Positions 14,601-51,126 of a DNA stretch of 64,000 nt are shown piece after piece. Source of the DNA: Watersipora subatra (lineage: Eukaryota; Bryozoa; Gymnolaemata; Cheilostomatida; Watersiporidae); NCBI RefSeq assembly GCF_963576615.1, contig NC_088714.1, forward strand, positions 35,195,143 to 35,259,142. The letters run 5' to 3'. Below the pieces are notes generated by a model, which saw only the letters and a program-made list of their open reading frames with translations, had not been told where the DNA came from and did not search any database. Numbering within the stretch: the first letter of the stretch is position 1; every line of letters starts with the position of its first letter. The translations under genes and the position numbers were made by a program.

Positions 14601-17600
14601 ACACCAAGTAATTACACATTGAATTTAAGTAAGTACAACATATAAACTTTGTAAAAACATAAATTTTATGCAAAATTAATAAAGTAGTAACCAATAAAAA
14701 GTTTCTTATTATTAATTGACTTTAGAGACTTGCCAAAGGAAGTTTATGCTTGGCAGAGTGTATGGTCAGTGGTAAAGTGAGTGATAGAAATACATGACAT
14801 AACTTATCATAACTTGCATTAAATATACTTTAGATTAATTTACCTTTTATGGTTTTTATAACTTAAGTTTTATTTTTTATTTCTGAAAGCTTTCTCCTAG
14901 TTACAAAATTTTAGTATTTAGAGAAAGTTTGGATGTCTTGCGTTAGAAATCTATTCAAACATTGGAAATCACTGTGTATGTCAAGATTAATATTTTCTAA
15001 AATTTTGATTTATATTTCAAAAAAGTTCTTGAGTAAAGATGACCAAAAGTTGAGGTTTTGCAGCAGAACAAAGGTTTCTGAAGAAAAGTTGGCCTCGGCA
15101 TGCTTATATTGCTTTACCTTGTTCCATTATAATGTTTATCTACATCGATTTTGACATTGACCTTGACCTTTAGCTGAATACAAGATGCCTAAGGTAAGAT
15201 TTGCTATGATAATTTCATGAAGAAAGGGCAAGCCTACTCACCGGAGGAAGTATATCTTCATCCACTAAATCAAGTAGATCTCCAGAATCCATCCTCTGCA
15301 CGGCCCCGCCACTTCTGTGTCTTCTTCTCTCCGGTGGCGAGGAGTTGAACTCAGTTTCACTAGGTCGTCTCCTCTCTATTTGGTGACTAGCGTAGCTGTA
15401 TATTGACATGGCTGTTGGTGAGTCTTCTCCAGAATTTTGCCTTACTGAGCCCCTAGCAATGTATGCAACAACGCATTACCTGACAGAAGTACATATGTAG
15501 TAGAATATTGTTTAGCCTGAGAGAATAAGATCTGAGCAGTTGAAGATAAAATACTAGGTTCAATGATAGAACCTTGCAACTTAGGACCATGTATGTTGCT
15601 AGCTGCCCTTTTCTCGGTTAGGTTTCCGAATAAAAAATTTACTTCCCCACGTTGCTATTTGCATACCCTGATTTCACTCACTAGTTATAAATCTGTTTAA
15701 AATGATTTGTTGAGGTGGGTTCTCTAATCCTTGAATTCAGGTTTTGATTATATTTTTGTAGCATCTACGGTGTATACAACTATGAACCATGTACTGTAAG
15801 TAGATTATGGACAATATCTACTGGATATACTAGTAAGTACTCTTTGCGGTAAGTACTTTATGGACAGTGTATACAAGTGCAGACTTTGCGTAGAAAGTGC
15901 ACACAAAGTATAAAAGCACCTAGTGTTTGTGATACCGTAAGTACATTATGAAAGGCGTTTACACTGTATGCAAGTACATGTATGTTACATATATAGAACA
16001 TATCATTTAATGTACTGGTTTAGGCTGCATTTCAATACAGATTAATTTAAACTTAACTATAAAATAGTAATAAACAATGAAAAAAGGAGAAATGGCTTAA
16101 TGATGATAACACGTGGCCCTCTGCAAAAATTGGACAGCTTTACAACCTACATTTATGTCAAAAACATATTGACAAATGCATACAAAATGAACACCACTCT
16201 GTTTGAAGCGATATAGAGCCTCTGAACCACCAGCAGAGTGGGTAGCAAAGTAGAGGCCCGTCATGCATCCAATGTTTTAGAACAGCTTATCAGCTGCTCT
16301 AAATGCTTCCTCAGTTAGTCCAGAATCAGTTTTAATCCTTTGCCCCCCCCCCCCCCTCGCAGTTTTTTCTCAAACAACTTTCATACTTTCATGCCCTACA
16401 CACCTTTCAACTCTGCAGCCCTTCTTAACTATTCTAATAGTTTAAAGCTTATAAATTCTGCTGCTAATATAATGATGTCAACTTACAGACATACTTACAG
16501 ACATACTTATAGACATAGCACAGATATGGTACACACTAATCCATATTGTCAGCAATACAACACACACTTGTCTCTGCATAGAGAGTATTTATCAACGATA
16601 GTGTTACATTAGCTAACTTTTTCTGTTTTTGTGTTTTCGATTTACAAATAGTTGTAGAATATATATATGCACATCTTAAACAATTCCACCTCATTTCAAA
16701 TGTTCTTCACCAAGTAGTTGGTGTAGTCTGTAAAAACATCCCATTTAGATTTGTTTGACTGGACAGTGTATTACCTTAGTCGATGATATTTTTTAGACCG
16801 ACGTCGGTTAATTTATACCTTCCCCTGTTGTTGCTATGCTCGGATCATTAATCCTAGACAGCAAAGCGTTCACTTCATAAGTCCAAATGGTCATAGACCA
16901 CCATGACGATTGACTACATACTGTCATAGACCACCATGACGATTGACAACATACTGTCATAGGCCACCATGACGATTGACTACATACTGTAGACCACCAT
17001 GACGATTGACTACATACTGTCATAGACCACCATGACGATTGACTACATACTGTCATAGACCGCCATGACGATTGACTACATACTGTCATAGACCACCATG
17101 ACGATTGACTACATACTACAAACTGTGGACTCACTGTGCAGGGCCCATGTATCTTGTCGCCAGCTCCTCTGGTTCATTAGGGACAGCATCTTTGAACTTT
17201 CGTCTTCCCATGAAAGGACTTTTTCCATTGGCTGTGCTGTATTGGCTGTAACCACTTGCCATGCTCAATGTATCCGCCGATTTCTGACCATATACCTTAT
17301 ACTTTTGTAGAGTGCCGTTTACTCCGATCTTGGGACTGGCACCACCTAATCTCCCGTCAACAGAGTCCAGGGTGTCTGTACTCCTCCGCAGCGCCCTGGG
17401 CAGACAGCAGAACAGCTAAATTGAGAATTTCTAGCAGTTTATTAAATGTTGAAAATTTGATTGCAATTCTATAGATCTGTTTAAAATGAGTGTTGTGGTT
17501 CGTTAATTAGTATGTACAGTGTATAGCAGGGCAGTTGCTCTACAGTAAGTACATTATGTACAGTGTATAACAGTGCAGTTGCTCTGCAGTAAGTACATTA

Positions 17601-20600
17601 TGTACAGTGTATAGCAGTGCAGTTGCTCTGCAGTAAGTACAGTATGTACAGTGTATAACAGTGCAGTTGCTCTACAGTAAGTACAGTATGTACAGTGTAT
17701 AGAAGTGCAGTTGCTCTACAGTAAGTACATTATGTACAGTGTATAGCAGGGCAGTTGCTCTGCAGTAAGTACATTATGTACAGTGTATAACAGTGCAGTT
17801 GCTCTGCAGTAAGTACATTATGTACAGTGTATAACAGTGCAGTTGCTCTACAGTAAGTACATTATGTACAGTGTATAGCAGTGCAGTTGCTCTACAGTAA
17901 GTACATTATGTACAGTGTATAACAGGGCAGTTGCTCTACAGTAAGTACATTATGTACAGTGTATAGCAGGGCAGTTGCTCTGCAGTAAGTACATTATGTA
18001 CAGTGTATAACAGTGCAGTTGCTCTGCAGTAAGTACATTATGTACAGTGTATAACAGTGCAGTTGCTCTGCAGTAAGTACATTATGTACAGTGTATAGCA
18101 GTGCAGTTGCTCTGCAGTAAGTACAGTATGTACAGTGTATAACAGTGCAGTTGCTCTACAGTAAGTACATTATGTACAGTGTATAGCAGGGTAGTTGCTC
18201 TGCAGTAAGTACAGTATGTACAGTGTATAACAGTGCAGTTGCTCTGCAGTAAGTACAGTATGTACAGTGTATAACAGGGTAGTTGCTCTACAGTAAGTAC
18301 AGTATGTACAGTGTATAGAAGTGCAGTTGGTCTACAGTAAGTACATTATGTACAGTGTATAGCAGTGCAGTTGCTCTACAGTAAGTACATTACAGGCAGT
18401 ATATACAGCGGGTGTTACAGATTATTATCAATGTAGAGATCAGCTGAATCATGGATTATTGCCTTTGTAGTCGCTATGTTTCTTACCCCATCTTTTTCTA
18501 CTTTTTTAGAAAGCTAAATACATTGTGAGTAGCAAATACGCACTGAAGTTGCATGGAGCCAAGCTTTTCCAGATCTCTTTGTTGGTGGTCCTCCAACCAC
18601 TTTTCATATGATCTGTATCTCCGCAGACACATGATGATAACCAAGACCAACAACAGCAGCGCCAAAACATATCCAAGGATCATCACTAGCTGCAACGCAA
18701 CAAATTTAGTATAGCATTTTGCTAACAAGTACAACCTTTTTATCCAAACTTATAAGTTTTAAAACTTTGAATGATTATAAATGGATTCTCACCAGCTCCG
18801 TACCCTGGAGGCCCTGAAAGTTGGCCCGTTCTGTGTTTCCGGTCACTCCTACAGTCGTCCCTCCTTCAACAACTCCAGTAGTCATTCCTGCATAGATTGT
18901 TTTATTACAAACAAGTTACAATTGAACTGACTTCTTAGTTCCCTTGAATACAACACATTTAAATATAATTCTGAGACAAACCCAGCTACGCCTGACTATT
19001 GAATGCATAATTCAAAAGAAACTCTACTTGCATCATCATTTTACAGTTGCTTACTTTTAGACTAATAAGCATGGCTTGTTTGACAGAGGGGAAAATTAAA
19101 GGTAAGCCGCCAATCTTTCCAAATCCATTCATTTTATTCATTTTATAATCAACCTGCCAATCGCATGTCAAATGCTGTAGACCTCTAGACCATGTTAGCT
19201 CTATTCATAATAAATTTGGTACTCTAAACCAATAATTCTTTAAATACTTGATAGAATTGACATAAATGCCTTCAAAATTGAAACAAAAAAATATTTACTA
19301 ATAGAAAATATCTGAATATTTGTGAATGGCTGAGCGTTTGAATATGTAAGTATATGCATATCTTAATAAATAACATTTTCAATATCTATACAGCATCTAT
19401 TTGCATCCAATGTTTTGACAAAACAGGATAGTATTGTGGGTACCTCTCTAAATGAATATTATTTTTCTATCGTCGCCTGACAAAATGTGCTGACCATGTG
19501 ATAATAAACAGCAAGCGATTGGCAAATTTAAATAAGCAAGCAAAATGATTAGCAAGTTTGTCAACCAAAATAAGTTTTCAAATCATTCAATCTGGAATTA
19601 GTCATCTGGCTTACCCGGAGGCTCAACAGGGCTTATGGTACAAAGTGTCTCAATGCTGGGGCAGGTTATTGGTGATGGGTAGGAGCTGAGGCTAACGTTT
19701 GTGTTGCAAGTTGGCTTGTCACAACAATCATTGTTGTTGTATATCACCTGACAGACAAAGTATCTACTTAATGTTTACACTTACAGAAAAGACTGACAGA
19801 CTTTTATTAATAAATGTATTGATAAGATATTTAAATTTTCTCACATTTTGATTTCGAAGCAAACCCAGAAATGATCTGAATTCACAACTATTTACAGTCT
19901 CAGCACGAATTCCTCTTGCGCATACAATCTTCAGAGTGGCTGGTAGCTCTGTGAAGGAGAGGCATGAGCTGAGCTGGTTGAACCTAACAAATATACACCG
20001 ACTAGCATTAGAGTCAACAAGTATCACCAAGGTCTTAAAAAGCTATGATTTAGCAAGCTGGAACAATAAGATATTTTAGAATAATGTTTGTTCACTGAGG
20101 CTATGACCCAGATATGGTAGTTTTGGCTTGAAATCAAAGTTGCTGCACTTTTTCTCTGCTCTAGCTATGAGTACAAAATGGTAAGTTCAATCTCCCATAC
20201 AGGAAGTGGACTGTTATAGATACCGCTCTACACTTGGCCTTACAGGAAGTAGACTGTTATAGATACAGCTCTACACTTGACCTTACAGGAAGTGGACTGT
20301 TATAGATACAGCTCTACACTTGGCCTTACAGGAAGTGGACTGTTATAGATACAGTTCTACACTTGGCCTTACAGGAAGTGGACTGTTATAGATACAGCTC
20401 TACACTTGGCCTTACAGGAAGTGGACTGTTATAGATACAGCTCTACACTTGGCCTTACTAAGGATCTCCAGAATAAGCCAGGCACGAATATTTAAATATC
20501 AAAGCAATATTTTATCTAGGGCAGAGATAACAAGCTTTGGTAGCTGTCCGCTAGTTTAAATAAAATAGGAATACAGTATCATTAACATTATTATTATTGC

Positions 20601-23600
20601 TAATATATTAATTATTATTGTAGCCATTATTGGTATTATCACTTCAATTATTAGTATTGTTATAAGTATCGATAGTATTAGTATTATTATTAGTATTAAA
20701 ACTAGAACTATTAATATTTGTACATATTATCATCGTTATTATTATTCTCACTATTTTTAATTTTTTATTATTATTTTAGCCATTCTCAGTATTATGAGTG
20801 CTAGTACTCTTGTTAGTACTAGTATTAATATTGTTGCTAGTTTTAGTATTAAACATATTTTTTGAGATAAGAGGGAAATATGAAACAAACTTTCTTGTAA
20901 CGCTTAGATCTAAAAGAAATGATACAATTTATGAATAAATGCATGTCCATAGACTTACTCATTTGTATCCGCTCCGCCATCCATCCTGAGTTCTTGCAGG
21001 GCAGGAGCTGATACAAAGTTAGCGAGGTTCTTTAGTTGATTTCCTCCGATATTTAACCTCTTCAACTTCTCAAGTATGATCGAGCTCGTTGACATGAAGT
21101 CTATCTGCTGCAGCTGATTGTTCTTGAGATTTATCTCCTCAACATTCGTGGTGCCTGAGAATGTTACATTGGAGAGCTCATTGAGGTGGTTGTCATGTAG
21201 GTCAAGGATTCTCAGTTTGCTCAAGTTTTGCAGATGCGTAGATACCTGTGAATAAGGATTGTTGCATTTGTTTTAACAGCAGCCAATTAAAAACCCTGAA
21301 CTTTTTTTTCTATACAGACAAGCAGAAATTTGTTTGGATCGAAAATTATCTGTATCTTGAAATTTGTTCCAAGATCTGCTTCGCATGTTGGAATGTTTTA
21401 GCAAATACTACTTAGGAATACACTGTACTGTTTCAATAACGTCCACAACTTGAAAATTTATTCTATTAATTCTTTAATAAATATTATTACATGTAATATT
21501 AAACTAGTACATTGTAAAAAGCTAAACATAAAAATTAAATTGGTAAACTAATAATTAGTAGAAAGCGTTTTATAGTTGATATACTTTAGAGATACGTATA
21601 GACGGAAGGATGTTTGGCAATACCTATGCGCAGAAGGAGAGGAGGGAGTAGGGTACACTGGCTAATTGACTCTAACTAATACTAGATGACATCTAAACCA
21701 ACTTATAGTTGGTTTAGATGTCATCTAGTTGCATCTACTGCATTGGTTATGTTATATTTTTACGTCTTATTTCAATGTGAATAGCCTCTTTAAGTTCGCT
21801 TACATTGTACCATAGGGGCAAGCACTTCAGTTGTGGACTCATACATTTGCTCTAACGTTATGTCGTATGTTAAGGGAACTGTACAACTCCATGAGTTCTC
21901 AAAAATAGATATCAATACAATCAATGAGGTTTCCTTAAAGGAGGTTTTACCGAACAGGATGTAGAAGTCCAATACTTTTGACCATAGCAGACATTCGGTA
22001 GTACACCATGTAGACCACAGCTACTAGCGATGATGTCAAAATAGGTTATGCACTCTCTGACTCATCTGTATGTCTGTATGTCTGTATGTCTCTTGGTCCA
22101 CTGCATGTGATGACTAAATTTATGTCAGTGTTGCGTTAGACTCAATGCGTAATGAATGATTTTCAAATATGTTAATTTTACAACGTCTCTATTAGTTGTT
22201 TGGAAAGCTGTATCAAGCTTATTATGGTAATGAGGCTACAATTAAAACGGAGCAATGGAAAAGTAGCGTGTAGCGAGTCTGCTCTTATAGAAGTGGTGCA
22301 TTTATACAGGAGTGGTGCAATTATATAAAAGTGGCGAGTAGCGAGTTTGCTCTTGTAACCCTTCCGCCATGCAATAATTTGTTAGCATCACGGGCTATCG
22401 CGTTCATTATACTAGACTACTAGAGACTACTCTTCGACTTGGGAATGTGCTGGAATGGCCCAGTGGCGGGGTGTCAGTCTATCAAACTAAGGCTTACTTA
22501 CTGGTAAGTAACTCTAGTCAGTCACTTGAGTCATACAAATATGGACTAAGTAGCAGGTGATGGGAAGCTAGTGATAAGCTCTATTAAGTCAGTTTTTCTA
22601 GAGAGGCTAAAACATCTATTCGCTAAAGCTGACCCTATCAGGTGTGGTTAGCAGGTCCGCTAGATACGATTGGCTGGTAGTTAATTTGGTACCTAGTGTG
22701 TACCCATACCTGCCAACTCTCACGCATTGCCCACTCTTGGGTTGGCAGGTCTGTGTGTACCTGAGAAGGTACTGCCGAGTCATTTGTACACAACTGAGTA
22801 CGCGAGTAGAAACTAGCACAACTGACTGTATCCACGGGGCAGGAACTGCAGCCAATAAATCAAGCATGAAATTACTATGTCACCTTTAGTACGTAGATGG
22901 TAGAGCGATTATTCAAAAACTGTCAAATGTTAATCGCAGTGTCTATGAACATGTATATCTATAGCTTTGCCTACTTGATTTCTCACCTCTGCTATGCCGC
23001 AGTCTGATATGTCCAGGGTTTCCAGATTATTCAAGTTACTAAATGAGCCGCTCTCTATCTGTAGGTCACCATTTCCTCTCAGGTACAATGACTTGACATT
23101 CTTCGCTACGCTGTAGAATAAAGTCTAACGCTAACACTCAGATATAACACTCAGATACTAATACTGGTACAATAATGCTAAAGCAATGTCAAATCTTAAA
23201 CAGATGGGCTTCTTCCGCTTTGAGATTTCCTTGGTTAATAAAAGCTCATGGTCAATCGTTTTTTGTGTTGTGGAGAGTTCGCTCAGTTTAATAGAAGTAA
23301 CCTAATAGAAGTACCCTTAATAGAAGGGTTAGTTAGAGGTGTGGCCATGAGTTAGAATTCTGTATAATGCAATATATTTCCAACATCCGCTGCGGTTTTC
23401 AACAGACGGACGGACACGAGTCTTATTATAGTAAAGATTTGATGCATCACCAAAGAAATACTGTGGCATAAACTAAATGCCTTTTCAGCCTATTACAGTC
23501 TTGCTAGCATTCACGAATCCATAACATAACACACTGGCTGACTTACCTTTGTCCAAGACTGGCTATTGTTTGAAGTCTATTGTTTTGGAGGTCTATGGTG

Positions 23601-26600
23601 AGAGAGCTTGGATTATTCAAAACTGGTCCTTGCGGATTAAAGGAAGTCAGGCGGTTGTTTTTCAAATCAAATGATTCAAGCAGACTGCTTGTCCTGAAAC
23701 ATATAAACTTGCTGTATAGAAGATTCCTGCTTGAAAGCAGGTTTTGGTAGAATGCCCGACAGATTAGTTAGCTCTTGAGGTTTTACGTGAGAAACGCTAG
23801 CCCTCTGAACACAAGAATCTCTCGAAGCGTCCGCCAATGGCAATTATGCGTTTTAGTACTTTTCTCAACAAAGTACATGTAACCTGCTTTTGAGCTCTTA
23901 AGGAAAAATAGAACAAAATATACGCAGTAAATAATGGTAATACTTATAAAAAACAACTTATAAAATGACAAACTCTTAACAATAACAACATTTAACTATT
24001 ATGGCAAGACTATTTAGGCGTTATTTATGTACATGTATATATAACTTGAGAAACAATATCTTCTTTATTATATGAAATATCTATTGAGCATCGAACTGGA
24101 TAAAAATCAGAACCACAAATAAAACATTTTTCTAATGAATGCTTAAAGAAGCTAGCTATATCAGCGTACAGAGTTTGTGATTCACTAAAAATCTGACTGA
24201 TGACAGGAAGGGTCGCATGGAGTGCCAACCTAGAACTACGAGTGTTTACTGATGCTATACAAGAGCTAGCCAAACTAGTTCATTGAAGACCTATTTCAAA
24301 CTCATGACCAAAATATTAGAGAACACGTATTTTATTAATGTACATGTACGCTGAGCACAACCATTCCATTGTTTATGCAAATATGCAAATTTAAGCTGCT
24401 ATTCGACAAACTATCTGAGATGACTAACTTTCATACTACCTGACCTACAGACTACATGATCAACGATGGCCAACGATTTGCTTAGTTCAATTCTATCCAG
24501 CTAGATTTCAATTTAAAAAAAATAGCAATGGTTAAAAAATCAGGTATAGGTTGCGTTTGAACTCCAGTATCCGTTTAACTAATTTAACGCATTTAATGCA
24601 ATTAACGTATTTAACACGTTTAACACATTTAACACATTTAACACAGCAAACAATCTTATGTGGAATGCTGTAAGATTTATGCAGTTTTATGGTTTTTGAT
24701 AGGCTGATTTGTTATTCAAGAGATTACAGAGACATATCTACAAGTCTCTAGCATACTTACAGTACATTCGTGACTCTAGTATACTTACAGTAAATTCGTG
24801 ACTCTAGTATACTTACAGTACATTTGTGATTCTAGTATACTTACAGTACATTTGTGACTCTAGTATACTTACAGTATATTCGTGACTCTAGTATACTTAC
24901 AGTATATTTGTGACTCTAGTATACTTACAGTATATTCGTGACTCTAGTATACTTACAGTACATTTGTGACTAGTATACTTACAGTACATTTGTGACTCTA
25001 GTATACTTACAGTACATTTGTGACTCTAGTATACTTACAGTATATTCGTGACTCTAGTATACTTACAGTACATTTGTGACTCTAGTATACTTACAGTATA
25101 TTCGTGACTCTAGTATACGTACAGTATATTCGTGACTCTAGTATACTTACAGTACATTTGTGACTCTAATATACTTACAGTACATTTGTGACTCTAGTAT
25201 ACTTACAGTACATTTGTGACTCTAGTATACTTACAGTACATTTGTGACTCTAGTATACTTACAGTACATTTGTGACTCTAATATACTTACAGTACATTTG
25301 TGACTCTAGTATACCTACAGTATATTTGTGACTCTAGTATACTTACAGTACATTTGTGACTCTAGTATACTTACAGTATATTCGTGACTCTAGTATACTT
25401 ACAGTACATTTGTGACTCTAGTATACTTACAGTATATTCGTGACTCTAGTATACGTACAGTATATTCGTGACTCTAGTATACTTACAGTATATTCGTGAC
25501 TCTAGTATACTTACAGTATATTCGTGACTCTAGTATACTTACAGTATATTTGTGACTCTAGTATACTTACAGTATATTCCTGACTCTAGTATACTTACAG
25601 TATATTTGTGGCTCTAGTATACTTACAGTACATTTGTTACTCTAGTATACTTACAGTACATTCGTGACTCAAGTATACTTACAGTGCATTTGTGACTCTA
25701 GTATACTTACAGTATATTTGTGACTCTAGTATACTTACAGTATATTTGTGACTCTAGTATACTTACAGTATATTCGTGACTCTAGTATACTTACAGTACA
25801 TTTGTGACTCTAGTATACTTACAGTATATTCGTGACTCTAGTATACGTACAGTATATTCGTGACTCTAGTATACTTACAGTACATTTGTGACTCTAATAT
25901 ACTTACAGTACATTTGTGACTCTAGTATACTTACAGTACATTTGTGACTCTAGTATACTTACAGTACATTTGTGACTCTAGTATACTTACAGTACATTTG
26001 TGACTCTAATATACTTACAGTACATTTGTGACTCTAGTATACCTACAGTATATTTGTGACTCTAGTATACTTACAGTACATTTGTGACTCTAGTATACTT
26101 ACAGTATATTCGTGACTCTAGTATACTTACAGTACATTTGTGACTCTAGTATACTTACAGTATATTCGTGACTCTAGTATACGTACAGTATATTCGTGAC
26201 TCTAGTATACTTACAGTATATTCGTGACTCTAGTATACTTACAGTATATTCGTGACTCTAGTATACTTACAGTATATTTGTGACTCTAGTATACTTACAG
26301 TATATTCCTGACTCTAGTATACTTACAGTATATTTGTGGCTCTAGTATACTTACAGTACATTTGTTACTCTAGTATACTTACAGTACATTCGTGACTCAA
26401 GTATACTTACAGTGCATTTGTGACTCTAGTATACTTACAGTATATTTGTGACTCTAGTATACTTACAGTATATTTGTGACTCTAGTATACTTACAGTACA
26501 TTTGTGACTCTAGTATACTTACAGTATATTTGTGACTCTAGTATACTTACAGTACATTTGTGACTCTAGTATACTTACAGTATATTTGTGACTCTAGTAT

Positions 26601-28823
26601 ACTTACAGTACATTTGTTACTCTAGTATACTTACAGTACATTCGTGACTCAAGTATGCTTACAGTGCATTTGTGACTCTAGTATACTTACAGTACATTTG
26701 TGACTGTGGTATACTTACAGTATATTCGTGACTCTAGTATACTTACAGTATATTCGTGACTCTAGTATACTTACAGTACATTTGTGACTTTAGTATACTT
26801 ACAGTGCATTTGTGACTAGTATACTTACAGAACATTTGTGACAAAGGAACTGACATCTGTCAACTCATTGTTTGATAAGTCAAGCTTTTCGAGTTTCTTA
26901 AATCTGTGGAGGCCAAGCACTGTTGTTAGACGGTTTCCGCTGAACAACAATTTTCTTACAGATGTGACAGCGCTATGCGAAGATAGGTCAAGGACACTAA
27001 GGCTATTTCCTTCAAAATTATACTCGTCAGGTCCAATGATCTCGCTGAACAGTGTAGGATCAATCAAGTTGATCGCATTATTCTGCATTCGAAGTGTCTT
27101 CAAATTAACCCATTCATTTCTACAATTCAATGTGTATACATGCATAACATTGGCCGTGGTGTTTTCTCATTTCTGAGGGAAAAGTAGATTAAAAACCATT
27201 AGCTGCTATGCATGTCACAAAATTATTTGACAAAAAAAAATGATACGCATTTATTTTACTGGAAAACTCTTCTTGTTTTATGTTATGGTACTAGAATTAG
27301 ACCTCCACATAATGCTATTCCTAAATTGTTTAATATTGTACAAATCTATCAGGTGAACTCTTCGGTGAACTTAAAACAACTTTTTAACTTCCAACAAAAT
27401 TCTCTGACTGAAGAAGTTATTATGAAGTTGGATGATGGCAGATATTTAACTATGCATTAGTCTCATAGCCAATCCAGCGTGAAAATATTTTCGTATTAAT
27501 GACCACAGCTATGCGTTGGATGTAGAGATTGTAAATATAGTGGCAGGTAGGTCTATAATATGAAAAACACACTCAGGTAGTAAAACAGTTTACAATGTAA
27601 AGATTCGAACGTGGTAGACGTGGTAGTAAATATGTTGAAAATAATTGGTAAGCCCACCCAGGTGGTAGTTATGCAGATAGTGAAAATATGTTAGATCCCG
27701 TAGATGGCAAACTCAAATGGTAAACAGACTCGCATGAGAGTGATAAAAAAGACACACTCGTATGACGGGCAAAATAACAATGTATAAACACTCTCTACAC
27801 TAGATTGTTACAAGGTATAAACACTCTCTACGCTAGATTGTTGGCTGGCGAGTACAAAGCCTACCCAAATCCGGTTGGTATTAGCTCATCGATTGAGGTG
27901 AGCTGGGGGTTGTTGGCTATCTCGAGGAGTCGGAGGGAATGAGAGACGGGGCTCACCAGTGACCCTAGATGAGAGTTCTGTAAGCCTGTGAGGCTGTTGA
28001 GGTAGAGATACTCTACTCCGTTAAGGTAATCACTGTTCAGGAAGTCTAGGTCGGTGATAACGCAGTTAGTTAATTGAATCCTTATTATCTATGAAATAAA
28101 ACACATCTACTAGTTATTTATACCTTGGCTAAGGCTATGAAAAAATATGTAATACAGATAGCTGGTTTATTTTAGATCATATGTTAACTTTAATTAATGT
28201 ACATTAATAAAACCCCTTTTTCATTGAGTGTGTCTGTTTGTTAATCTGTGTCAACAGAATGCGTTTCCATAATTTTTAGCCGATTTCATTCAAACTTCCT
28301 ACTCTTATGCCCTGCGCCTTCAATCAGGTCCCTGAAACTGTTCGGATTCAAAACTCTGTTTTGTTCGTGAGAACGAGCCTCTCAAACACTCACTCGCAGG
28401 CTGTCTGATTAAAGTGAGGGAAATCCCAGGCATCGACAAGCTCACTGCTAGTTGGACATAAAAACCTAAACAAGCAGAGATTAACGTCTGCAAATAAGTT
28501 TTCAGCTTCTTTTTACATATAAGAACTTCTAGAATTAAATAAATCTCATATGATAAGAATGTCATACACGTTACAAAAACTCATCCGCCACTGAAAGGGT
28601 CAATAACTAAGTCAATAACGAATCACAGTTTTTTTACCTTGCCAGCCTCTAGTCCACTGATACTATCATAGACAGAGTTATCTAATCCTGTTAAGTCGTC
28701 GTTATCGCAGTCAATGGAGTTACTCCCAACAGCTTCGGTAAAACAGCTAGGTATAGTTTGACTCCGTACTAACGATGTCAGGCTTAAACATATAACTCCG
28801 ACAATATAAATCCGCAGTGGCAT
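11424..28823 (-). CDS. LRR single-pass transmembrane protein gene (15 coding exons, 843 aa)
   Basis: Joining 15 minus-strand exons by GT-AG sites with agreeing phase throughout gives 2532 coding bases, an 843-residue protein ending in TGA. Seen in order: signal peptide (1-21, MPLRIYIVGVICLSLTSLVR), a short N-terminal cysteine pair (C27, C39), about 14 leucine-rich repeats (roughly 85-420; motifs such as LEKLDLSNNELTDV and LRILDLHDNHLNEL), a region with eight cysteines (427-502), a Gly/Thr-rich stalk, one transmembrane helix (543-564) and a tail of about 280 residues rich in Ser and Arg. There is no TIR, kinase, Ig or GPCR domain, so it is not a Toll receptor. By analogy with other LRR membrane proteins it would sit at the cell surface and bind a protein ligand or mediate adhesion; that is inference. 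The family is not identified. Confidence 0.88.
12026..12201 (-). CDS. LRR gene exon 14 (cytoplasmic)
   Basis: Residues 711-768, highly basic (QRKATERKKMGDV; TRAKSGIVKKRLSPHLSVNK). Acceptor GTACATTCTAG, donor CAGCAG|GTGTGT (phase 2). Confidence 0.75.
13323..13355. other. Perfect 15-bp inverted repeat, 3-base loop
   Basis: The arms AACATCACTGTGTTC (13323-13337) and its exact complement (13341-13355) are separated by TTT. It lies in intron 13 of the LRR gene. It could form a hairpin or cruciform; function unknown. Confidence 0.85.
13919..14508. repeat. 17-bp minisatellite, about 35 copies, with an inverted block
   Basis: The unit is close to AGCCAACCTTGGCATAT, with CCATGG and CTATGG variants. 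Near 14385-14440 a few units run in the opposite orientation, which makes a local palindrome. Because 17 is not a multiple of 3 and the unit lacks stops on the minus strand, all three minus frames read through; those frames are not genes. The array is in intron 13. Confidence 0.95.
15242..15395 (-). CDS. LRR gene exon 13 (cytoplasmic)
   Basis: Residues 660-710: a basic Ser/Arg block (SSPPERRRHRSGGAV) and an acidic leucine motif (SGDLLDLVDEDILPP). Acceptor TCAATATACAG, donor CTCCG|GTGAGT (phase 0). Confidence 0.78.
15770..15990. repeat. Degenerate relatives of the 44-bp repeat
   Basis: Several diverged copies of the GTAAGTAC...TTATG-ACAGTGTATA motif that makes up the 44-bp array at 17.5-18.4 kb. 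Spacing is irregular. It lies in intron 12 and may be an older or seed copy. Confidence 0.6.
16343..16356. repeat. Poly-C tract
   Basis: A run of 14 C in intron 12. It lies inside a short plus-strand open frame that is not considered coding. Confidence 0.9.
16891..17117. repeat. 33-bp minisatellite, about 7 copies
   Basis: The unit is close to CATAGACCACCATGACGATT + GACTACATACTGT, with one shortened copy near 16985. It lies in intron 12, starting about 20 bases past the exon-12 donor. The 33-bp length preserves frame, so the minus strand shows a repeated peptide that I treat as spurious. Confidence 0.93.
17135..17245 (-). CDS. LRR gene exon 12 (cytoplasmic)
   Basis: Residues 623-658 (SPFMGRRKFKDAVPNEPEEL then ATRYMGPA). 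Acceptor GTGGTTACAG, donor GCACA|GTGAGT (phase 2). The 33-bp minisatellite begins about 20 bases into the next intron. Confidence 0.72.
17303..17395 (-). CDS. LRR gene exon 11 (cytoplasmic)
   Basis: Residues 592-621 (ALRRSTDTLDSVDGRLGGAS, then PKIGVNGTLQ). Acceptor TCTGCCCAG, donor CAAAA|GTATAAG (phase 2). A stronger donor 10 bases on (AAG|GTATAT) would break phase with exon 12. Confidence 0.72.
17509..18394. repeat. 44-bp minisatellite, about 20 copies
   Basis: Each unit is close to GTACAGTGTATAGCAGTGCA followed by GTTGCTCTACAGTAAGTACATTAT. Variants alternate (TAACAG/TAGCAG/TAGAAG, CTACAG/CTGCAG). It lies in intron 10 of the LRR gene. Every unit contains CA|GTAAGTA on the plus strand, that is, antisense to the gene. 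Confidence 0.95.
18544..18689 (-). CDS. LRR gene exon 10 (transmembrane helix)
   Basis: Residues 543-590. VMILGYVLALLLLVLVIIMC is a clear single membrane span, followed by stop-transfer LRRYR. Acceptor GTTGCGTTGCAG. The donor CTTCA|GTGCGT is weak but is the one that gives the phase needed by exon 11. An in-frame extension past it would add a few residues. Confidence 0.85.
18793..18887 (-). CDS. LRR gene exon 9 (extracellular stalk)
   Basis: Residues 512-542, a Gly/Thr-rich linker (VVEGGTTVGVTGNTERANF) directly before the membrane segment. Acceptor CAATCTATGCAG, donor GAGCTG|GTGAGA. Confidence 0.8.
19615..19747 (-). CDS. LRR gene exon 8 (cysteine-rich cap, second part)
   Basis: Residues 467-510, with C474, C475, C480, C495 and C502 in a Pro/Ser/Thr-rich context (NDCCDKPTCNTNVSL). 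Acceptor TTTGTCTGTCAG, donor CTCCGG|GTAAGC (phase 1). Confidence 0.82.
19845..19983 (-). CDS. LRR gene exon 7 (cysteine-rich cap, first part)
   Basis: Residues 421-466, with C427, C441 and C453. It closes the LRR solenoid but does not match the usual LRR C-terminal cap spacing. Acceptor TATTTGTTAG, donor CAAAAT|GTGAGA. Confidence 0.8.
20197..20458. repeat. 43-bp minisatellite, about 6 copies
   Basis: The unit starts TACAGGAAGTGGACTGTTAT and ends CTCTACACTTGGCCT. The copies are nearly identical. It lies in intron 6 of the LRR gene. Confidence 0.93.
20580..20850. repeat. Degenerate (ATT/AGT) trinucleotide tract
   Basis: Imperfect runs of ATTATT, AGTATT and TAGT triplets extend over about 270 bp in intron 6. 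Low-complexity, no coding signal. Confidence 0.75.
20959..21245 (-). CDS. LRR gene exon 6
   Basis: Residues 325-419, four LRRs (LRILDLHDNHLNEL, VEEINLKNNQLQQI, LKRLNIGGNQLKNL, LQELRMDGG). There is a possible N-glycosylation site NVT. Acceptor CTTATTCACAG, donor AATGA|GTAAGT (phase 2). Confidence 0.92.
21681..21729. other. Perfect 22-bp inverted repeat, 5-base loop
   Basis: The arms at 21681-21702 and 21708-21729 are exact complements (left arm begins ACTAGATGACATC), with loop TTATA. It lies in intron 5 of the LRR gene, so its minus-strand form would be in the pre-mRNA. There is no TA-flanked or longer element around it that I can see. Confidence 0.88.
22987..23110 (-). CDS. LRR gene exon 5
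   Basis: Residues 284-324, two LRRs (VKSLYLRGNGDLQI, LETLDISDCGIAE). Acceptor TTATTCTACAG, donor GCAGAG|GTGAGA, ending in phase 0. Confidence 0.88.
23547..23693 (-). CDS. LRR gene exon 4
   Basis: Residues 235-282, two LRRs (LESFDLKNNRLTSF, SLTIDLQNNRLQTI). Acceptor TATGTTTCAG, donor CAAAG|GTAAGT, phase 2 on both sides. Confidence 0.9.
24577..24643. repeat. 10-bp repeat, about 6-7 copies
   Basis: Variants of ATTTAACACA / ATTTAACGC run head to tail. It lies in intron 3, upstream (in plus coordinates) of the 28-bp array. Confidence 0.75.
24747..26842 (-). repeat. 28-bp minisatellite built from the exon-3 splice donor
   Basis: There are about 74 head-to-tail copies. On the minus (gene) strand each reads close to GTCACAAATGTACT|GTAAGTATACTA + GA, that is, 14 bases like the end of exon 3 followed by a consensus 5' splice site. 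The first unit overlaps the last 14 coding bases of exon 3 (26829-26842), so the array probably expanded from the exon-intron junction. Nearly every unit keeps GTAAGTAT. A 728-bp block of 26 units is itself duplicated in tandem. Confidence 0.95.
26829..27119 (-). CDS. LRR gene exon 3
   Basis: Residues 138-233 with about four LRRs (LKTLRMQNNAINLI, LSVLDLSSHSAV, VRKLLFSGNRLTTV, LEKLDLSNNELTDV). The acceptor is TTGAATTGTAG; the donor is GTTCT|GTAAGTAT (phase 2). The last 14 coding bases and this donor form the first unit of the 28-bp array in the following intron. Reading past the donor meets TAA at once. Confidence 0.9.
27865..28088 (-). CDS. LRR gene exon 2
   Basis: Residues 63-136. The acceptor is TTTATTTCATAG and the donor is TTTGG|GTAGGC (phase 2). 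It carries early, irregular LRRs (VEYLYLNSLTGL; LRLLEIANNPQLTSI). Confidence 0.85.
28638..28823 (-). CDS. LRR gene exon 1 (signal peptide, N-cap)
   Basis: Residues 1-62. The start MPLRIYIVGVICL gives a hydrophobic signal peptide with likely cleavage after S21. C27 and C39 may form an N-terminal LRR cap. The exon ends phase 0 at GGCAAG|GTAAAA. Confidence 0.85.
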
Positions 28824-28855: not shown

Positions 28856-29544
28856 CTAAAATCAAAAGACTCCAGTTGGTGTTTTCAGATGAAGAGAGAG
28901 AGAGGGAAATGGTGTTCAGAAGGAGCCACAGGGCTGACTTTTGCTCATAAAGGCACAAGGCTGAGTCAGCGTGTGTAAGATCTCTTTGTGTCACACGATG
29001 ATAATAAGCAGCGACTACCATATGAGTCAACTGTCCAGGATATGCTGCAAGTCACATTCGGGAGAGATTTAGTATACAGTCGCACCCGCTTACATATACA
29101 GTAGCATTTATGACTATAGATACACACCATAGATACAGAAACATAAGTTGAGAAAGTTTCATCCTATTTAAAAATATATATTTATACAAAAATCGAGTTA
29201 TCTAAAGACGCCATTGTACGTTGTTATAAAACCTCCATCTATTTGACTTATAACAAAACTAGTAGTTGATAAGTCTGTTTACAAAAACATACCTTATTTT
29301 CAATATGCGATAAAATTTACTAGCACTATCTTTGTTGAATATAGTAAAAGTATCGTGATTGTATGAATTTATCTATTTCAGTACTTGCTATGTCTGATCA
29401 CCAATTTTTAGTAAGCAATAGGGAGATAGCGAGATTTTTCCAGAATTGTGCTTTCTGTTTACGCTTCGACAATTTAACCAATCAAATGAATTCTACACCG
29501 CTGTTACAAACAGAGCGTCAACATAACTTAAAAACAATGAGCTT

Positions 29545-29617
29545 CGCCCGAACAGGGACTCGAACCCTGGACCCTCAGATTAAAAGTCTGATGCTCTACC
29601 GACTGAGCTATCCGGGC
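29545..29617 (-). tRNA. tRNA-Lys (UUU)
   Basis: The minus strand folds into a complete cloverleaf. The 7-bp acceptor stem is GCCCGGA/TTCGGGC; a D arm GCTC-AGTCGGTA-GAGC carries box A. The anticodon stem TCAGA/TCTGA encloses loop CTTTTAA with anticodon TTT. The T arm CAGGG-TTCGAGT-CCCTG carries box B, and the discriminator is G. It is intronless and lacks an encoded CCA, as in eukaryotes. A TTTTT terminator follows about 10 bases downstream (near 29531-29535). It lies upstream of the LRR gene, on the same strand. Confidence 0.97.
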
Positions 29618-30949
29618 ACTCGATTTTCATCGGTGTTAAGACAAGAGCTATGCACAAATAGCTCCGCCCACTACACTTAACGTAAGAACAGATAAATCCA
29701 ACTGTGTGAAAGCAAGCGGCTTCAAATTGAATGTTATTTCCATTTGTCTTGAGCAAAAATAAGTTTAGTTCAGGTTACTAGAATGGCATGAGTTACTGGC
29801 TTACTGCAACAATAAAATCCATACACTCTTGCATGCAAATACCAATCTAATGTTACTCTTGTCCACCAATGTCCTTTACCAACTCAACAACATTGTAATT
29901 ATAACACACCTACATGAAGTTTGATCAATGATATACAGCCCCCCATACATGGGGCTGTATATCATTGGTTTGATTAAATTCTGACGACTGCTTAAAATGA
30001 AGCAAATGGTTTTCTTAAGGGTTTTATTTTACCCTATCCATTTTTTACTTAGAAAATTATACAATACAAAAGAAGAAGAGTCCCATTAGAATGAACTGTT
30101 AGTAGTGATTAGGAGTGCATAACATATACAGATATGATGTTTGGATGAGAATAAGTAATACCAAACAGCTATTCACAAATATGACTGGTCATTATATAAG
30201 CTCTCCAAGATGTTCTGCAGAATAAAGCAAAATAACTTGTCATTTTGGAAGCATAAGGCTTTGGAATAAATTTATTGAAACAAAAGTTTTTCAAACACAT
30301 TTATTATTTTTAAATTTCAAGTTGTAGCTCATTGTAATCTTGAGAAGACAATTACAAGTTTCAACTTTTTACCACTAATACTTTATGAATAAATAGACAG
30401 TTTTTATGAATAGTTTAAATTTGTGATCTCAAGGTTGCCAGTGTGAATGTGAAAGTCAAGAGAACATAAAAACATGTATTTACCATTTTTTTTGGTCAAT
30501 GGCATTGCTGACACAACTAATCACAGCCCAGAGGCTAAGATCTGAGTTGGTACTTGTAAAAGGCAAATACCAACAGCTACTTGATACTTAGGGATGTTTG
30601 CTATAAGCTCACTAGTAGAAGCTTGTTATATTTCAGTTAATATTGTTAAAATGGCTAAATTATGGAACATCAGAAGAATTTTTAAAATAAAAAATGAAGT
30701 CCGTTTAGAAACTAGAGAAATTATTAGAAACTAACAACAGTTATAAATGACTATTTATTAATTAGTGGATCCATTGATTCAGGAGGACAGCAATAACTAC
30801 AAGTACAACAGTTGGTAGCTAGAGTTCAAGAGTTCAAACTGCTTAGAGTTCTACTTAAAGTCTCTGACCTATTAGTTGATATATATAAATATAGGGTATA
30901 TATATAATAGAAAAAATATTAGGAGTAACGTAGATTTTTAATACAAGCG
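29618..30949. other. Intergenic, one hairpin, otherwise no feature seen
   Basis: AT-rich sequence between the tRNA gene and the retrotransposon. Apart from the palindrome at 29926-29967 and a TATATA tract near 30880-30910, I see no gene or RNA. Confidence 0.5.
29926..29967. repeat. Perfect 17-bp palindrome, MITE-like relic
   Basis: CAATGATATACAGCCCC and its exact complement flank an 8-base loop. The same terminus (AATGAYATACAGCCCCC) recurs at 62965-62985, and a similar inverted pair (AATGATATAGAGCCCCC ... GGGGGCTGTACACCATT) spans 59231-59311. This suggests a dispersed palindromic repeat family. Confidence 0.75.
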
Positions 30950-33900
30950 CTACAAATCTTTTTTGCGCGATGCACTCCTCAGGTGCGGTTTGTATATATA
31001 TATATAATTATATATAAATAAAATTGTTTCCTCACCCCAGTTAACCCGTATGGGTGGTAATTTCTGCTCTAACTCGGGTCTTCTACCAAAAACTTGGAGT
31101 TTGAGCACTCGCCTCAAGATCTTAGCTGTTCCCAATAGCGCACTTTTCTGCAACTCACCTGAGTTGATTGCTGTTGGTATTTGGGCAAGCCACATTTTAT
31201 GCGCCGGTGTTATTGCGCCCAGTGCCCCAATGACTACTGGGATTACAGTTGTTCTTGCATCCCAGCATTTTTCAATCTCTTCTCCTAGAGGGAGATATTT
31301 CTCTACCTTCTCTTTTTCTTTGCTGGCTATATTGTAGTCATTGGGTACTGCTATATCTATTATAGTAGCCCCCTTGTTCTCCTTGTCCATCACCACTATA
31401 TCTGGTTGGTTTGCTAGGACATGCTTGTCAGTCCGGATGTAGAAGTCCCAGAAAACCTTAGCGTGGTCATTTTCATTGACCTTACCAAGAGCTTCCCACC
31501 AGTGTTGTGGTTTATTAAGGCCATACTCATCACATAGACTTTTATACACAATACCTGCGACATGATTATGTCGCTCAGTGTATGCGTTTCCTGCTAGCTG
31601 CTTGCATCCACTGATGATGTGTTGGATGGTCTCAGGCGCATATTTGCACAGTCTGCATCTAGGATCGTCTCTAGTGTGATAGATTTTTGTTTGAAGTTGC
31701 CTTGTTGGGAGCACTTGCTCCTGGGCTGCCATGATTAGTGACTCTGTATTGGCCGTTAGGTTTCCTTTGTTCAGCCACATATATGTCTGGTGAAGATCGC
31801 CAACCTTAGATATTTGTCGGTGGTAAGCACCATGAAGAGGTTTCGTGTGCCAATCAATTTCCTCATCATCAGGGCGAAGCTCCATTGTAGGAGCAGCCGA
31901 TTGAAATTCAGCTAGCAACTTATCTGAAGTGGCCATGGAGGCTGCATAGGCTTTGATGCTTTGTTCTTCCTCTTTCACTGTCTGCTGTACACTTTTGAGT
32001 CTCCTACCGCCATCTTTCCTATCGAGATACAATCTAGTAGTATCAGATTTTGGGTGGAGTGCTCCATGCATGGTCAGCAGTTTACGAGTTGCTATATCTG
32101 TTTCCTTGATGGCTTCCTCAGTCCACTTTATTGTGCCTGCTGGATACCTTATTACTGGCAGTGCGTAGGTATTTATTGCCATGACTTGGTTCTTGGCATT
32201 GAGCTGGCTACGTAGGACCTGCCGAAGGTTTTTCTTGTATTCGGTAATGGCTTTGTGACGTACTTCGGCTTCGTGGTTGATGTTGCTTTGCATAATCCCC
32301 AAGTACTTGTACCCTTCTTCTATATCTTTGATGGTACCATTTGGCATTCTTAGGCCATCTGTGAGCATCGAATGGTCTTTCTTAAGAATCAGCCTTCCAC
32401 ATTTCTCAATACCGAAGGTCATTCCGATGTCTTTGCTGTATACCTGAGTGAGGTGTATTAGCGAATCAATGTCCCTTTCTTTGTTAGCGTACAGCTTGAT
32501 GTCATTCATGTAGAAGAGGTGGTTTATCTTGGTGTCACTCTTAAACTGGTACCCATATTGAGCCTTCTCCGGCATACTGCTTAGAGGGTTTAGGCATATG
32601 CAGAAGAGCAGCGGTGATAAGGAGTCACCTTGATAGATGCCTCACCTAATTTTTACACTCGCCAGCTTTTTGCCATTAGCCTCCAGTTCCGTCTTCCATT
32701 TGGTCATTGACATCTTGATGAATGCCACAAGAGCAGGGTAAACATTGTACATACTGAGGCACTCAAGTATCCAACTATGGGGAATTGAGTCATAGGCCTT
32801 TTTGTAGTCAATCCAAGCCATGGTAAGATTGGTATGCCTTCTCCTGCTGTCTTAACAGACCGTCCGATCCACCAGTAACTGATGTTTGGCTCCTCGGGTG
32901 TTGCGCCCAATTCCTTTCTGAGCACTGGTCATATAGTGACTCATGTGCTCTTCCAGTTTGTCTGCAACTATTCCTGAGACCAGTTTCCAGGTGGTGGGGC
33001 AAGCACGTTATTGGTTGATAGTTTTTGGGAATCGGCCCCTGCTTTGGATCTTTTATCAGAAGTACACTTCGTCCTTTGGTCAGCCATTCTGGATGGTCAC
33101 CTTATTCTATTAGGCATTCCATCTGCTTAGCCATCCTAGTGTGAAGTGATGTCAATTTCTTCAACCAGAAGGCTTGAATCATGTCATAGCCAGGTGCTGC
33201 CCAGTTCTTCATACGCTGCACTCTGCAATTGATGTCCACTTCGCTGATGGTGAGTCCTTGCTGAGCCACAGTGTGTTGATGGCTCTCTTTAAGCCTCTTC
33301 AGCCAGCTTGCAGTGGTGTTATGAGTAGTCTCTTTCTCCCAGATGTCTTTCCAGAACTTTGAAGTGCTGGATCGGGGAGGATCTGACATTGGCTTCTGCA
33401 GTTCACCTTTGAACTGGGAATACACACTAGATGGATTATTGATGAACAGTTCGTTCATTCTCTTGTTATCCCGCTCTTTGGTGTACCGCTTCAGTCGTGC
33501 CCAGAATGCTACTAGCTGCTGTTTGGCAGATTCTAGAGCTTCTATTGTGGCTTCCCTTTTTGGACGCTCCAAACTGTGGTTATATCTCTCACTGAGCCTA
33601 CTAGCTTTTTTGCGCAAGTCCTTGATCTTATTTTGTAGCCTCAGCTGCCAGGATGGAATGGCTTGAAGCCTTGTTGGCACTGGCTTAATACCCATATCCT
33701 CCAAGATGATGGTTGCTGTACTGTAGATTAGGGCATTAGTCTTACTGATCGATCCAGTTGAGATTGACTCCAGTGCCAAGTTAATGTCTTCTAACAGCTT
33801 CTTAGGAATGCTAACTCTTTGTAGTGGTACCCTGCTTCCATAATCATTAGCAGCTGGCATCTTGTTGATGATATTTTCCGCAAGCTTTTTCACCCTTGGG

Positions 33901-34317
33901 TCAAGGTCAAAGTGCATGTCTTCTTCAACCCGTTAGTCAACACAAGATTGTGTATGTGTGACAGTGTGTTGCTATGCACTCCTCGTTCGTCGAGGCTACT
34001 TGGGTGAACTGTTCCCTAATTTCATCTACCTCAAGTTCCGATATGGGGTGCCGTTTGATTATGTTACTCCTCTGAGCTACAAGCTGCTTAGCGGTTTGTG
34101 GCAATTCAGGGCGCATTTTTATCCACAATTGACGCATCCTTCCCATGTAGCCCCACTTTTGAAGTTCACTCATAAAGTAGCAATGCATGAGGTCCGTGTT
34201 ATCAGTTCGAGTCCATTTCATCCGTTTTGACCCAGTAGCCCATTTTTCACTGTCTTGTCCTGGTTCAGCTACAGGCAGCGCGGACCTTGTTTGACCGGGC
34301 TACGTCCGAGCCGGCAT
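30950..34317 (-). pseudogene. Decayed non-LTR retrotransposon ORF (RT plus restriction-like endonuclease)
   Basis: The minus strand carries a single retrotransposon ORF in pieces. In order: a lead segment from a likely ATG at 34317 (WTRTDNTDLMHCYF; stop codon in the first ten codons); a 5' region from 33917; RT motif WAAPGYDMIQAFWLKKL (near 33190-33140); RT motif A (AWIDYKKAYDS, near 32810); RT motif B (GIYQGDSLSPLLFC, near 32620); and an open 541-codon piece from 32575 with the catalytic YxDD changed to YMND (residues 22-25). The same piece has a CCHC finger (C307, C310, H319, C324) and a PD...D endonuclease core (P391-D392, D407). The finger plus PD-D core is the layout of R2/R4/NeSL-type elements, which cut DNA with a restriction-like endonuclease. 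Stops at 33104-33102 and 32644-32642 and frameshifts near 33935, 33000 and 32850 show it is dead. Confidence 0.88.
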
Positions 34318-46993: not shown

Positions 46994-47796
46994 CAACAAG
47001 GCAATCTGCAGCGAGCAATGCTATTGGTTAACTGTTAATGACATTTTGTTGCAATACTGGCGTCTCGTCCCGCTGCCCGGTGGCTTCTATGAGAACCAGA
47101 ATAAAACGCATAAAGAGTTGATTATTCTCATCCATTGCTGCTGTCTAAATATAACGACAGCGACAGCGTCTGATGGCAGCTTGCGCGAATGCTGACACAT
47201 CCAAGCAGCTGGTCAAACTCTTTACACAATTTAAAAACAAAACAAGGATTGGACTCGAAGTTTAAGACAGAGCGAGACAGGTTAACGTTTGAATCATAGT
47301 TCATATAATATTGCAAAATTGGTGAATCTGCAAAGTTTGTGCGACGCAAACACTTTTTATGAGCCGATTGTTGTTCTATTAGTAAGTGTTTGATGGATGC
47401 GATGAACATGTTCATAAAAAATTAAAAATGATTCAGGTTTTCTTCATATTAAAACTATACATAATATTTGTAATGTTTACAAACTGATATCAATATATTT
47501 GGGTGACTAAAGATTTAGCTCTATAGACAGCTATTCCGAAAGACGTGTCAAAGATGCACACGAAGCTCTCCAAACAGCCAGTCAAAAAGCTCTGTGCATT
47601 GTTAAAAGCAATTGGAAAAAACCTTTTTGAACAAAAGAGTCTGAAAACAAAGCAAAGCAAATGTGCATAGAGCGATATGCTTAGACCTTTTGACAACTCA
47701 TACAGCTTTTCATGTATTCGTTGTCATTATAATATGTCTATGCGTGATCTTGTGGCTGTTATGATTGTTTTTGCTCCACTGTGAATGTTAGAGAAA
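46994..47796. other. Upstream region of the secreted-protein gene
   Basis: Contains no supported gene; it would hold upstream control sequence. A 95-codon minus-strand frame at 47128-47415 lacks splice or start support. Confidence 0.5.
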
Positions 47797-50700
47797 CCGT
47801 AACATATATACTTGTATACTTCAACCCTAACATATATACTTGTATACTTCAACCCTAACATATATACTTGTATACTTCAACCGTAGCATATATACTTGTA
47901 TACTTCAACCGTAACATATATATTTGTATACTTCAACCCTAACATATATACTTGTATACTTCAACCCTAACATATATACTTGTATACTTCAACCCTAACA
48001 TATATACTTGTATACTTCAACCGTAACATATATACTTGTATACTTCAACCCTAACATATATACTTGTATACTTCAACCGTAACATATATACTTATATACT
48101 TCAACCGTAACATATATACTTGTATACTTCAACCGTAACATATATATTTGTATACTTCAACCGTAACATATATACTTGTATACTTCAACCCTAACATATA
48201 TACTTATATACTTCAACCCTAACATATATATTTGTATACTTCAACCGTAACATATATACTTGTATACTTCAACCGTAACATATATACTTGTATACTTCAA
48301 CCCTAACATATATATTTGTATACTTCAACCGTAGCATATATACTTGTATACTTCAACCGTAACATATATATTTGTATACTTCAACCCTAACATATATACT
48401 TGTATACTTCAACCGTAACATATATATTTGTATACTTCAACCGTAGCATATATACTTGTATACTTCAACCCTAACATATATACTTGTATACTTCAACCCT
48501 AACATATATATTTGTATACTTCAACCGTAACATATATACTTGTATATTTCAACCGTAACATATATATTTGTATACTTCAACCCTAACATATATACTTGTA
48601 TACTTCAACCGTAACATATATACTTGTATACTTCAACCGTAACATATATACTTGTATACTTCAACCGTAACATATATACTTGTATACTTCAACCGTAACA
48701 TATATACTTGTATACTTCAACCGTAACATATATACTTGTATACTTCAACCCTAACATATATATTTGTATACTTCAACCGTAACATATATACTTATATACT
48801 TCAACCGTAACATATATACTTGTATACTTCAACCCTAACATATATACTTGTATACTTCAACCCTAACATATATATTTGTATACTTCAACCGTAACATATA
48901 TACTTATATACTTCAACCGTAACATATATACTTGTATACTTCAACCGTAACATATATACTTGTATACTTCAACCCTAACATATATACTTGTATACTTCAA
49001 CCCTAACATATATATTTGTATACTTCAACCGTAACATATATACTTATATACTTCAACCCTAACATATATACTTATATACTTCAACCGTAACATATATACT
49101 TGTATACTTCAACCGTAACATATATATTTGTATACTTCAACCCTAACATATATATTTGTATACTTCAACCCTAACATATATACTTGTATACTTCAACCCT
49201 AACATATATATTTGTATACTTCAACCGTAACATATATACTTGTATATTTCAACCGTAACATATATATTTGTATACTTCAACCCTAACATATATACTTGTA
49301 TACTTCAACCCTAACATATATATTTGTATACTTCAACCGTAACATATATACTTATATACTTCAACCGTAACATATATACTTGTATACTTCAACCCTAACA
49401 TATATATTTGTATACTTCAACCCTAACATATATACTTGTATACTTCAACCGTAACATATATATTTGTATACTTCAACCGTAGCATATATACTTGTATACT
49501 TCAACCGTAGCATATATACTTGTATACTTCAACCGTAACATATATATTTGTATACTTCAACCCTAACATATATACTTGTATACTTCAACCCTAACATATA
49601 TACTTGTATACTTCAACCGTAACATATATACTTGTATACTTCAACCGTAACATATATATTTGTATACTTCAACCGTAGCATATATACTTATATACTTCAA
49701 CCCTAACATATATACTTGTATACTTCAACCCTAACATATATACTTGTATACTTCAACCGTAACATATATACTTGTATACTTCAACCGTAACATATATATT
49801 TGTATACTTCAACCGTAGCATATATACTTATATACTTCAACCCTAACATATATACTTGTATACTTCAACCCTAACATATATACTTGTATACTTCAACCGT
49901 AACATATATATTTGTATACTTCAACCGTAACATATATACTTGTATACTTCAACCGTAACATATATACTTGTATACTTCAACCGTAACATATATACTTGTA
50001 TACTTCAACCGTAGCATATATACTTGTATACTTCAACCCTAACATATATACTTGTATACTTCAACCCTAACATATATACTTGTATACTTCAACCGTAACA
50101 TATATATTTGTATACTTCAACCGTAACATATATACTTGTATACTTCAACCGTAACATATATACTTGTATACTTCAACCGTAACATATATACTTGTATACT
50201 TCAACCCTAACATATATACTTGTATACTTCAACCCTAACATATATACTTGTATACTTCAACCGTAACATATATACTTGTATACTTCAACCGTAACATATA
50301 TACTTGTATACTTCAACCGTAACATATATACTTGTATACTTCAACCCTAACATATATACTTGTATACTTCAACCGTAACATATATACTTGTATACTTCAA
50401 CCGTAACATATATACTTGTATACTTCAACCCTAACATATATACTTGTATACTTCAACCGTAACATATATATTTGTATACTTCAACCGTAACATATATACT
50501 TGTATACTTCAACCGTAACATATATACTTGTATACTTCAACCGTAACATATATACTTGTATACTTCAACCGTAACATATATACTTGTATACTTCAACCGT
50601 AGCATATATACTTGTATACTTCAACCCTAACATATATACTTGTATACTTCAACCCTAACATATATACTTGTATACTTCAACCGTAACATATATATTTGTA

Positions 50701-51085: not shown

Positions 51086-51126
51086 AAATTGTAACATCAT
51101 ACGACTTACAAGATATAATATTTCAA

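Follow-up and report, generated by a model that had tools for sequence, protein, structure and literature searches.

A tandem array of 75 units, each with a splice donor motif, across the predicted end of exon 3 in an LRR receptor-like gene: a probable neutral, mirage-type minisatellite

The window analysed here is a stretch of 64 000 nucleotides (G+C = 35.7%). On its minus strand lies what appears, from its sequence, to be an invertebrate-like leucine-rich repeat (LRR) receptor gene, and a minisatellite spans the predicted junction of exon 3 and intron 3 of this gene (Table 1). Exon ends were chosen by eye and then checked for phase, and the model stops at exon 8. Exons 1–8 were found to join in one reading frame, every modelled intron having a GT donor and an AG acceptor. 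The joined protein (510 residues) matched Pfam LRR_4 (2.8e-24) and LRR_8 (1.6e-21), as well as 222 distinct solved sequences at E <= 0.001 (best match 7wrq_A, 1.6e-20). A membrane-spanning stretch was recognized by eye near position 18650, past the modelled exons.

Exon 3 ends with CT/GTAAGTAT in phase 2 (the slash marks the junction) and exon 4 starts in phase 2, a leucine codon spanning the join. The predicted end of exon 3 at the first donor of the array is well supported by these splice phases and by the LRR domain matches. The first unit overlaps the last 13–14 bases of the exon, in agreement with the preliminary description of this DNA. When exon 3 was searched against its own 784-Mb genome (24 candidates scored), the exon itself was the sole match at E <= 0.001, so no paralogue is available to settle the origin of the array.

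The array was called by Tandem Repeats Finder (TRF) with a period of 28, 75.0 copies and 93% matches, and was then divided by a scripted split into 75 units of 28 bp, two of which (units 1 and 67) have 26 bp. The array of about 74 copies reported initially is therefore real. Its consensus on the minus strand is GTCACAAATGTACT/GTAAGTATACTAGA. As had been stated, the donor motif is kept in almost every unit: GT is present in 75 of 75 and GTAAGTAT in 68, the others carrying GTACGTAT (four units), GTAGGTAT (two) or GTAAGCAT (one). Outside the array, GTAAGTAT occurs only three times on both strands of the window together, so its recurrence in the array is not due to chance. The intron half of the motif is strong, whereas its exon half is poor (TCT or ACT at positions −3 to −1); the name of consensus 5′ splice site given to it earlier thus suits the intron half but not the exon half.

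Nineteen unit types were distinguished. Eight were seen once, seven of them within the first seven or the last three units. An exact repeat of 755 bp is present inside the array (26498–25744 is identical to 25770–25016) at an offset of 728 bp, i.e. 26 units. It suggests a recent change in the length of the array in this one assembly, and for the same reason the assembled length may be recent or imperfect.

Table 1. Coordinates of the array and of the modelled exons in the window
Feature	Coordinates	Strand	Basis
Minisatellite, 75 units, each with GTAAGTAT or a one-base variant	24746..26842	−	TRF, scripted split
Unit 1: last 14 bases of exon 3 + 12 intron bases; predicted true donor TCT/GTAAGTAT	26817..26842	−	Unit split, gene model
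Internal duplication within the array	25016..26498	−	Coordinates worked out from repeat index 344 and offset 728
Exon 1: start codon; N-terminus reads like a signal peptide (by eye)	28638..28823	−	Gene model
Exon 2: LRR, weak alone (LRR_4 23.4 bits, under the Pfam cut-off)	27865..28088	−	Pfam, gene model
Exon 3: LRR receptor gene, phase 2 end CT/GTAAGT	26829..27119	−	Domain matches, phases
Exon 4: acceptor CAG/GAC; CT + G gives Leu	23547..23693	−	Gene model
Exon 5: LRR	22987..23110	−	Pfam, gene model
Exon 6: LRR	20959..21245	−	Pfam, gene model
Exon 7	19845..19983	−	Gene model
Exon 8: Cys-rich, LRRCT-like by eye	19615..19747	−	Gene model

The reading frame remains open through exon 4 with the first donor only. 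With each of the other 74 of the 75 donors (hereafter decoys), the product stops after residue 234, which bears out the statement that reading past the first donor meets TAA at once. This uniform stop results from phase 2 followed by GTAA and is not a sign of design, as any phase-2 GTAAGT donor gives the same. Constraint on the donor motif was assessed by counting distinct substitution states per unit column, deletions being excluded. Three states were found in the eight donor columns versus 15 in the 20 others, a difference that was not significant (binomial, P = 0.20; Fisher, P = 0.096 for variable columns and P = 0.37 for the hexamer only). The high retention of the donor is what a young homogenized array gives; weak constraint is compatible with the data.

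The array is probably a long, neutral, junction-spanning minisatellite of the kind called mirages, the minisatellite-like duplications of intron–exon boundaries described in amphioxus (PMC3087553, partial text), and the first donor would normally be the one used. A 28-bp stretch across the boundary between exon 3 and intron 3 would have been duplicated in tandem; unequal exchange would then have raised the number of copies, one step of 728 bp being recent. Three features would normally favour splicing at the first donor: it is the earliest to be transcribed, the exon that it closes (291 nt) is of usual size, and no other donor gives an open frame. The other 74 donors would mostly be bystanders, and occasional use of a decoy would yield the same truncated product, the mRNA probably being degraded. 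Like a mirage, the array has a unit lying across an exon–intron boundary (unit 1, the exon end being deduced from sequence) and copies that keep the splice signals. The mirage reading is based on this overlap and on the open frame given by the 2/2 phases of exons 3 and 4; duplication and homogenization are indicated by the 19 unit types, the exact internal repeat and the singletons near the array ends. Neutrality is suggested by the lack of significant constraint in the donor columns, by the abundance of arrays in this genome and, within the passages available from the source papers, by the report that amphioxus mirages do not disturb regular splicing. Arrays of at least three copies cover 23.8% of the window (23 arrays, positions 1–64000), or 24.3% (27 arrays) by the counting rule applied to a random genomic sample. 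This sample consisted of 200 kb (20 × 10 kb, positions 1–60 Mb of contigs C1–C10), and 46 arrays made up 9.3% of its sequence.

Several observations weigh against this reading. A human weight matrix served to score the donors, and percentiles were taken against the 4039 minus-strand GTs outside the array. On this matrix the true donor, TCT/GTAAGT, scored 0.42 (93rd percentile) and was outscored by 68 of the 74 decoys: 67 scored 1.88 (96.9th percentile), one 1.46, two 0.17 and four −0.61. The remaining seven donors of the LRR gene scored 0.5 to 7.6. Scoring each unit, as had been proposed, thus placed 67 decoys at the 97th percentile and the true donor lower. The true donor and 67 decoys had equal duplex energy with U1 (−7.3 kcal/mol), and the variant decoys reached −7.0, −4.3 and −3.1 kcal/mol. 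Since most decoys outscore the true donor, strength does not explain the correct choice; if the first donor is chosen, this must rest on order, exon size or accessibility. Finally, a GTAAGT core is found, with differing flanks, in the arrays of all seven other genomic loci matched, which a minisatellite core that existed beforehand would explain as well as seeding by the junction.

These loci were obtained by searching the genome (784 Mb, 239 contigs) with 254 bp of the array, only the best candidates being scored. At least 22 matches were recorded, 11 within the array (91–100% identical) and 11 at the seven other loci (70–73%). The presence of the unit at many unrelated places, given initially as grounds for rejection, thus received a mixed answer: among the scored candidates, close copies (at least 91%) occur at the LRR locus only, but the core recurs in the arrays of the seven other loci. 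Array periods at the seven loci are 26, 27, 28, 26, 27, 32 and 52; CTGTAAGT occurs at least once in six of them and at least five times in five, and AGGTAAGT in none. By eye, it is always the same portion of the unit that is similar. A GTAAGT core shared to a modest degree among minisatellites may therefore exist, and this is the chief alternative to junction seeding: the array would be one of a loosely defined group of minisatellites that have a GTAAGTA-like core, and one of them would have reached the exon edge, where its unit became the donor. Such an origin would explain the unusual T at −1. In the window, GTAAGT is present in three of 23 arrays (0.35 expected), i.e. in two besides the present one; three of the 22 other array units resemble the 28-bp unit at p <= 0.005 (200 shuffles), and an exact 14-base match to the unit is found at 15789–15802. 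However, the seven loci were found through their similarity to the array, so the shared core was partly selected. In the random sample, GTAAGT was present in one of 46 arrays (0.77 expected), which shows no general enrichment; AGGTAAG, in two of 46 (0.18 expected), gave an opposite hint on tiny numbers. No clear exon ending in an array was seen by eye among sampled arrays with looser donor words. The edge of the repeat would also have had to arrive in the correct phase and leave the protein unharmed. An origin independent of the exon is considered rather unlikely, and seeding by the junction, as originally suggested, is retained as the simplest reading.

By analogy with human IFI6, whose repeat donors are used, the decoys could themselves be functional. 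Extended forms of exon 3, of the kind conjectured in the preliminary description and all stopping after residue 234, would be produced, and the length of the array would set how much full-length receptor is made, by way of mRNA decay or of a short secreted product. The donor scores and the equal pairing of 67 decoys with U1 agree with such a use, as does the single identical truncation given by every decoy. On the other side stand the amphioxus mirages, reported in the passages available to be harmless to splicing, the absence of a significant selection signal in the donor columns, and a predicted accessibility that is lower for decoys than for the true donor. Regulatory use of the decoys is accordingly a minority possibility, to which a low probability is given.

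Accessibility was predicted by RNA folding. In a 40-nt window, the chance of the donor hexamer being unpaired was 0.217 for the true donor versus a mean of 0.020 for the other 74 (rank 1 of 75). The corresponding values were 0.079/0.022 in 80 nt, 0.022/0.006 in 150 nt and 0.037/0.005 in 240 nt (ranks 1, 2 and 1). A hairpin of at least six pairs over the donor can be folded in 64 of 74 decoys and not in the true donor, and a fold of <= −2 kcal/mol is predicted in 65 of the 74 other units, whereas unit 1 is at 0.0, as is unit 74. In these models, the greater openness of the true donor is likely due to the T at −3 of unit 1, which would break the hairpin. On this basis the decoys might mask themselves: the exon half (such as TATACT or TGTACT) would pair with AGTATA, leaving GTA in the loop, and U1 could not reach the donor, whereas the true donor, with its T at −3, would remain open. 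In that case the array would be a tolerated or even tuned series of closed donors that RNA-binding factors could open, and receptor output would depend on array length. Several controls weaken the contrast. The fold of the repeated unit (−2.2 kcal/mol) was equalled by 8–9% of shuffles of the exon half and by 14–16% of random 10-mers, so the fold is not special by itself, and a 194-nt stretch was no more stable than its shuffles (z = 0.15). In addition, unit 1 lies at the array edge, and for the remaining true donors of the gene the chance of being unpaired spans 0.000 to 0.132. The predicted hairpin difference between decoys and true donor is only suggestive, and self-masking is judged improbable.

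Duplication of the 755-bp repeat by the assembler at its 728-bp offset, which would make part of the array length an artefact, would account for 755 bp without a difference, but a recent duplication gives the same result, the contig is of chromosome size (66.3 Mb) and the junction anatomy is independent of array length, so this explanation is very doubtful. A role as a sponge for the U1 small nuclear ribonucleoprotein (snRNP), or as a shield of the intron from premature polyadenylation, would draw on 68 units in one intron with eight bases of intronic complementarity to U1, but is given hardly any credence, as the exon side would take no part in the pairing and most sites are predicted to be hidden in the RNA fold.

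Other arrays were inspected for similar junctions. At one related locus (L015), a MAP3K4-like gene with two downstream frames matching MEKK4_N, an open frame on the minus strand (2783–2956), for which no Pfam match was found, enters the first GTAAGT of a 52-bp array (2279–2831). This array may be a second mirage, although by eye the next exon is in an unsuitable phase. At L009 the array is flanked by exons of a TPR gene that is PEX5-like by eye, and it is not at an exon edge by eye. No convincing exon was seen by eye at the array edge in L010–L014; L013 has an open frame of 109 residues there. Within the LRR gene, a 44-bp array (17511–18392) and a 33-bp array (16890–17117) seemed by eye to resemble nearby exon ends. 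They were rejected as further mirages, as neither junction was among the seven best places per unit when the window was scanned after masking of 18 arrays. The 44-bp array carries GTAAGT on the strand opposite to the gene and has similar places at 15801–16000. The arrays of the window include one of 61 bp × 53 (1–3216) and one of 28 bp × 118 (47795–51086). In the random sample (L016–L035), seven of 46 arrays share the palindrome TTCGCGAA (0.11 expected), a candidate core of another minisatellite family.

Elsewhere in the window, frames like those of a non-long terminal repeat (non-LTR) retroelement were found on the minus strand at 30950–34299; the largest matched RVT_1 (2.8e-8) and, weakly, zf-RVT, and two smaller ones gave no match. 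A tRNA-Lys gene (anticodon ttt, 29544–29618, minus strand) was detected by ARAGORN, and as a tRNA by Rfam too. No exact match to patterns derived from the array unit was found among genomes of prokaryotes or contigs of viruses, in keeping with an animal-type locus.

Junction-spanning minisatellites such as mirages are known but rarely described. The present locus is of this known kind and is most likely neutral, and its interest lies in testing how donors are chosen. It sets up a natural competition between one predicted true donor and 74 near-identical ones, 68 of which are better by a simple score, and donor use here would weigh position, transcription order and local folding against donor strength. 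Tandem duplication of splice signals has also been proposed as an origin of introns (Rogers, 1989; Zhuo et al., 2007, both as cited in the passages of PMC3087553); duplicated splice signals are common to that model and to this locus, where no new intron was seen. In amphioxus, the same passages give units of 10–72 bp in Adh3, and the Adh3 data together with reverse transcription PCR (RT-PCR) on globins suggest no interference with regular splicing, although copies could be cryptic sites. Hosts named there and in parts of PMC3902484 are Adh3, the globins BflGb6 and BflGb9, troponin C and PGBD5, the last added by PMC3902484, which reports Adh and troponin C without splicing disturbance. Six and three units are described in the two haplotypes of BflGb6 (PMC3087553) versus 75 here. 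If the present host is not a cephalochordate, this would be a mirage outside the group for which, in these passages, mirages are described.

The human gene IFI6 (6-16, G1P3) offers a further comparison. A donor minisatellite was described there by Turri et al. (1995). The IFI6 array reportedly starts at an exon end and has 26 copies of a 12-base unit, with a likeness to the donor consensus in the exon half as well as in the intron half. If so, the present units differ from those of IFI6, as their intron half matches the consensus but their exon half (ACT or TCT) does not. According to the part of PMC4526556 consulted, two downstream repeat units of IFI6 are used as donor sites. Both loci thus have a minisatellite whose units supply splice donors; in IFI6 the use of repeat donors has been reported, with several mRNAs as the outcome, whereas here the use of any decoy would lead to a stop after residue 234.
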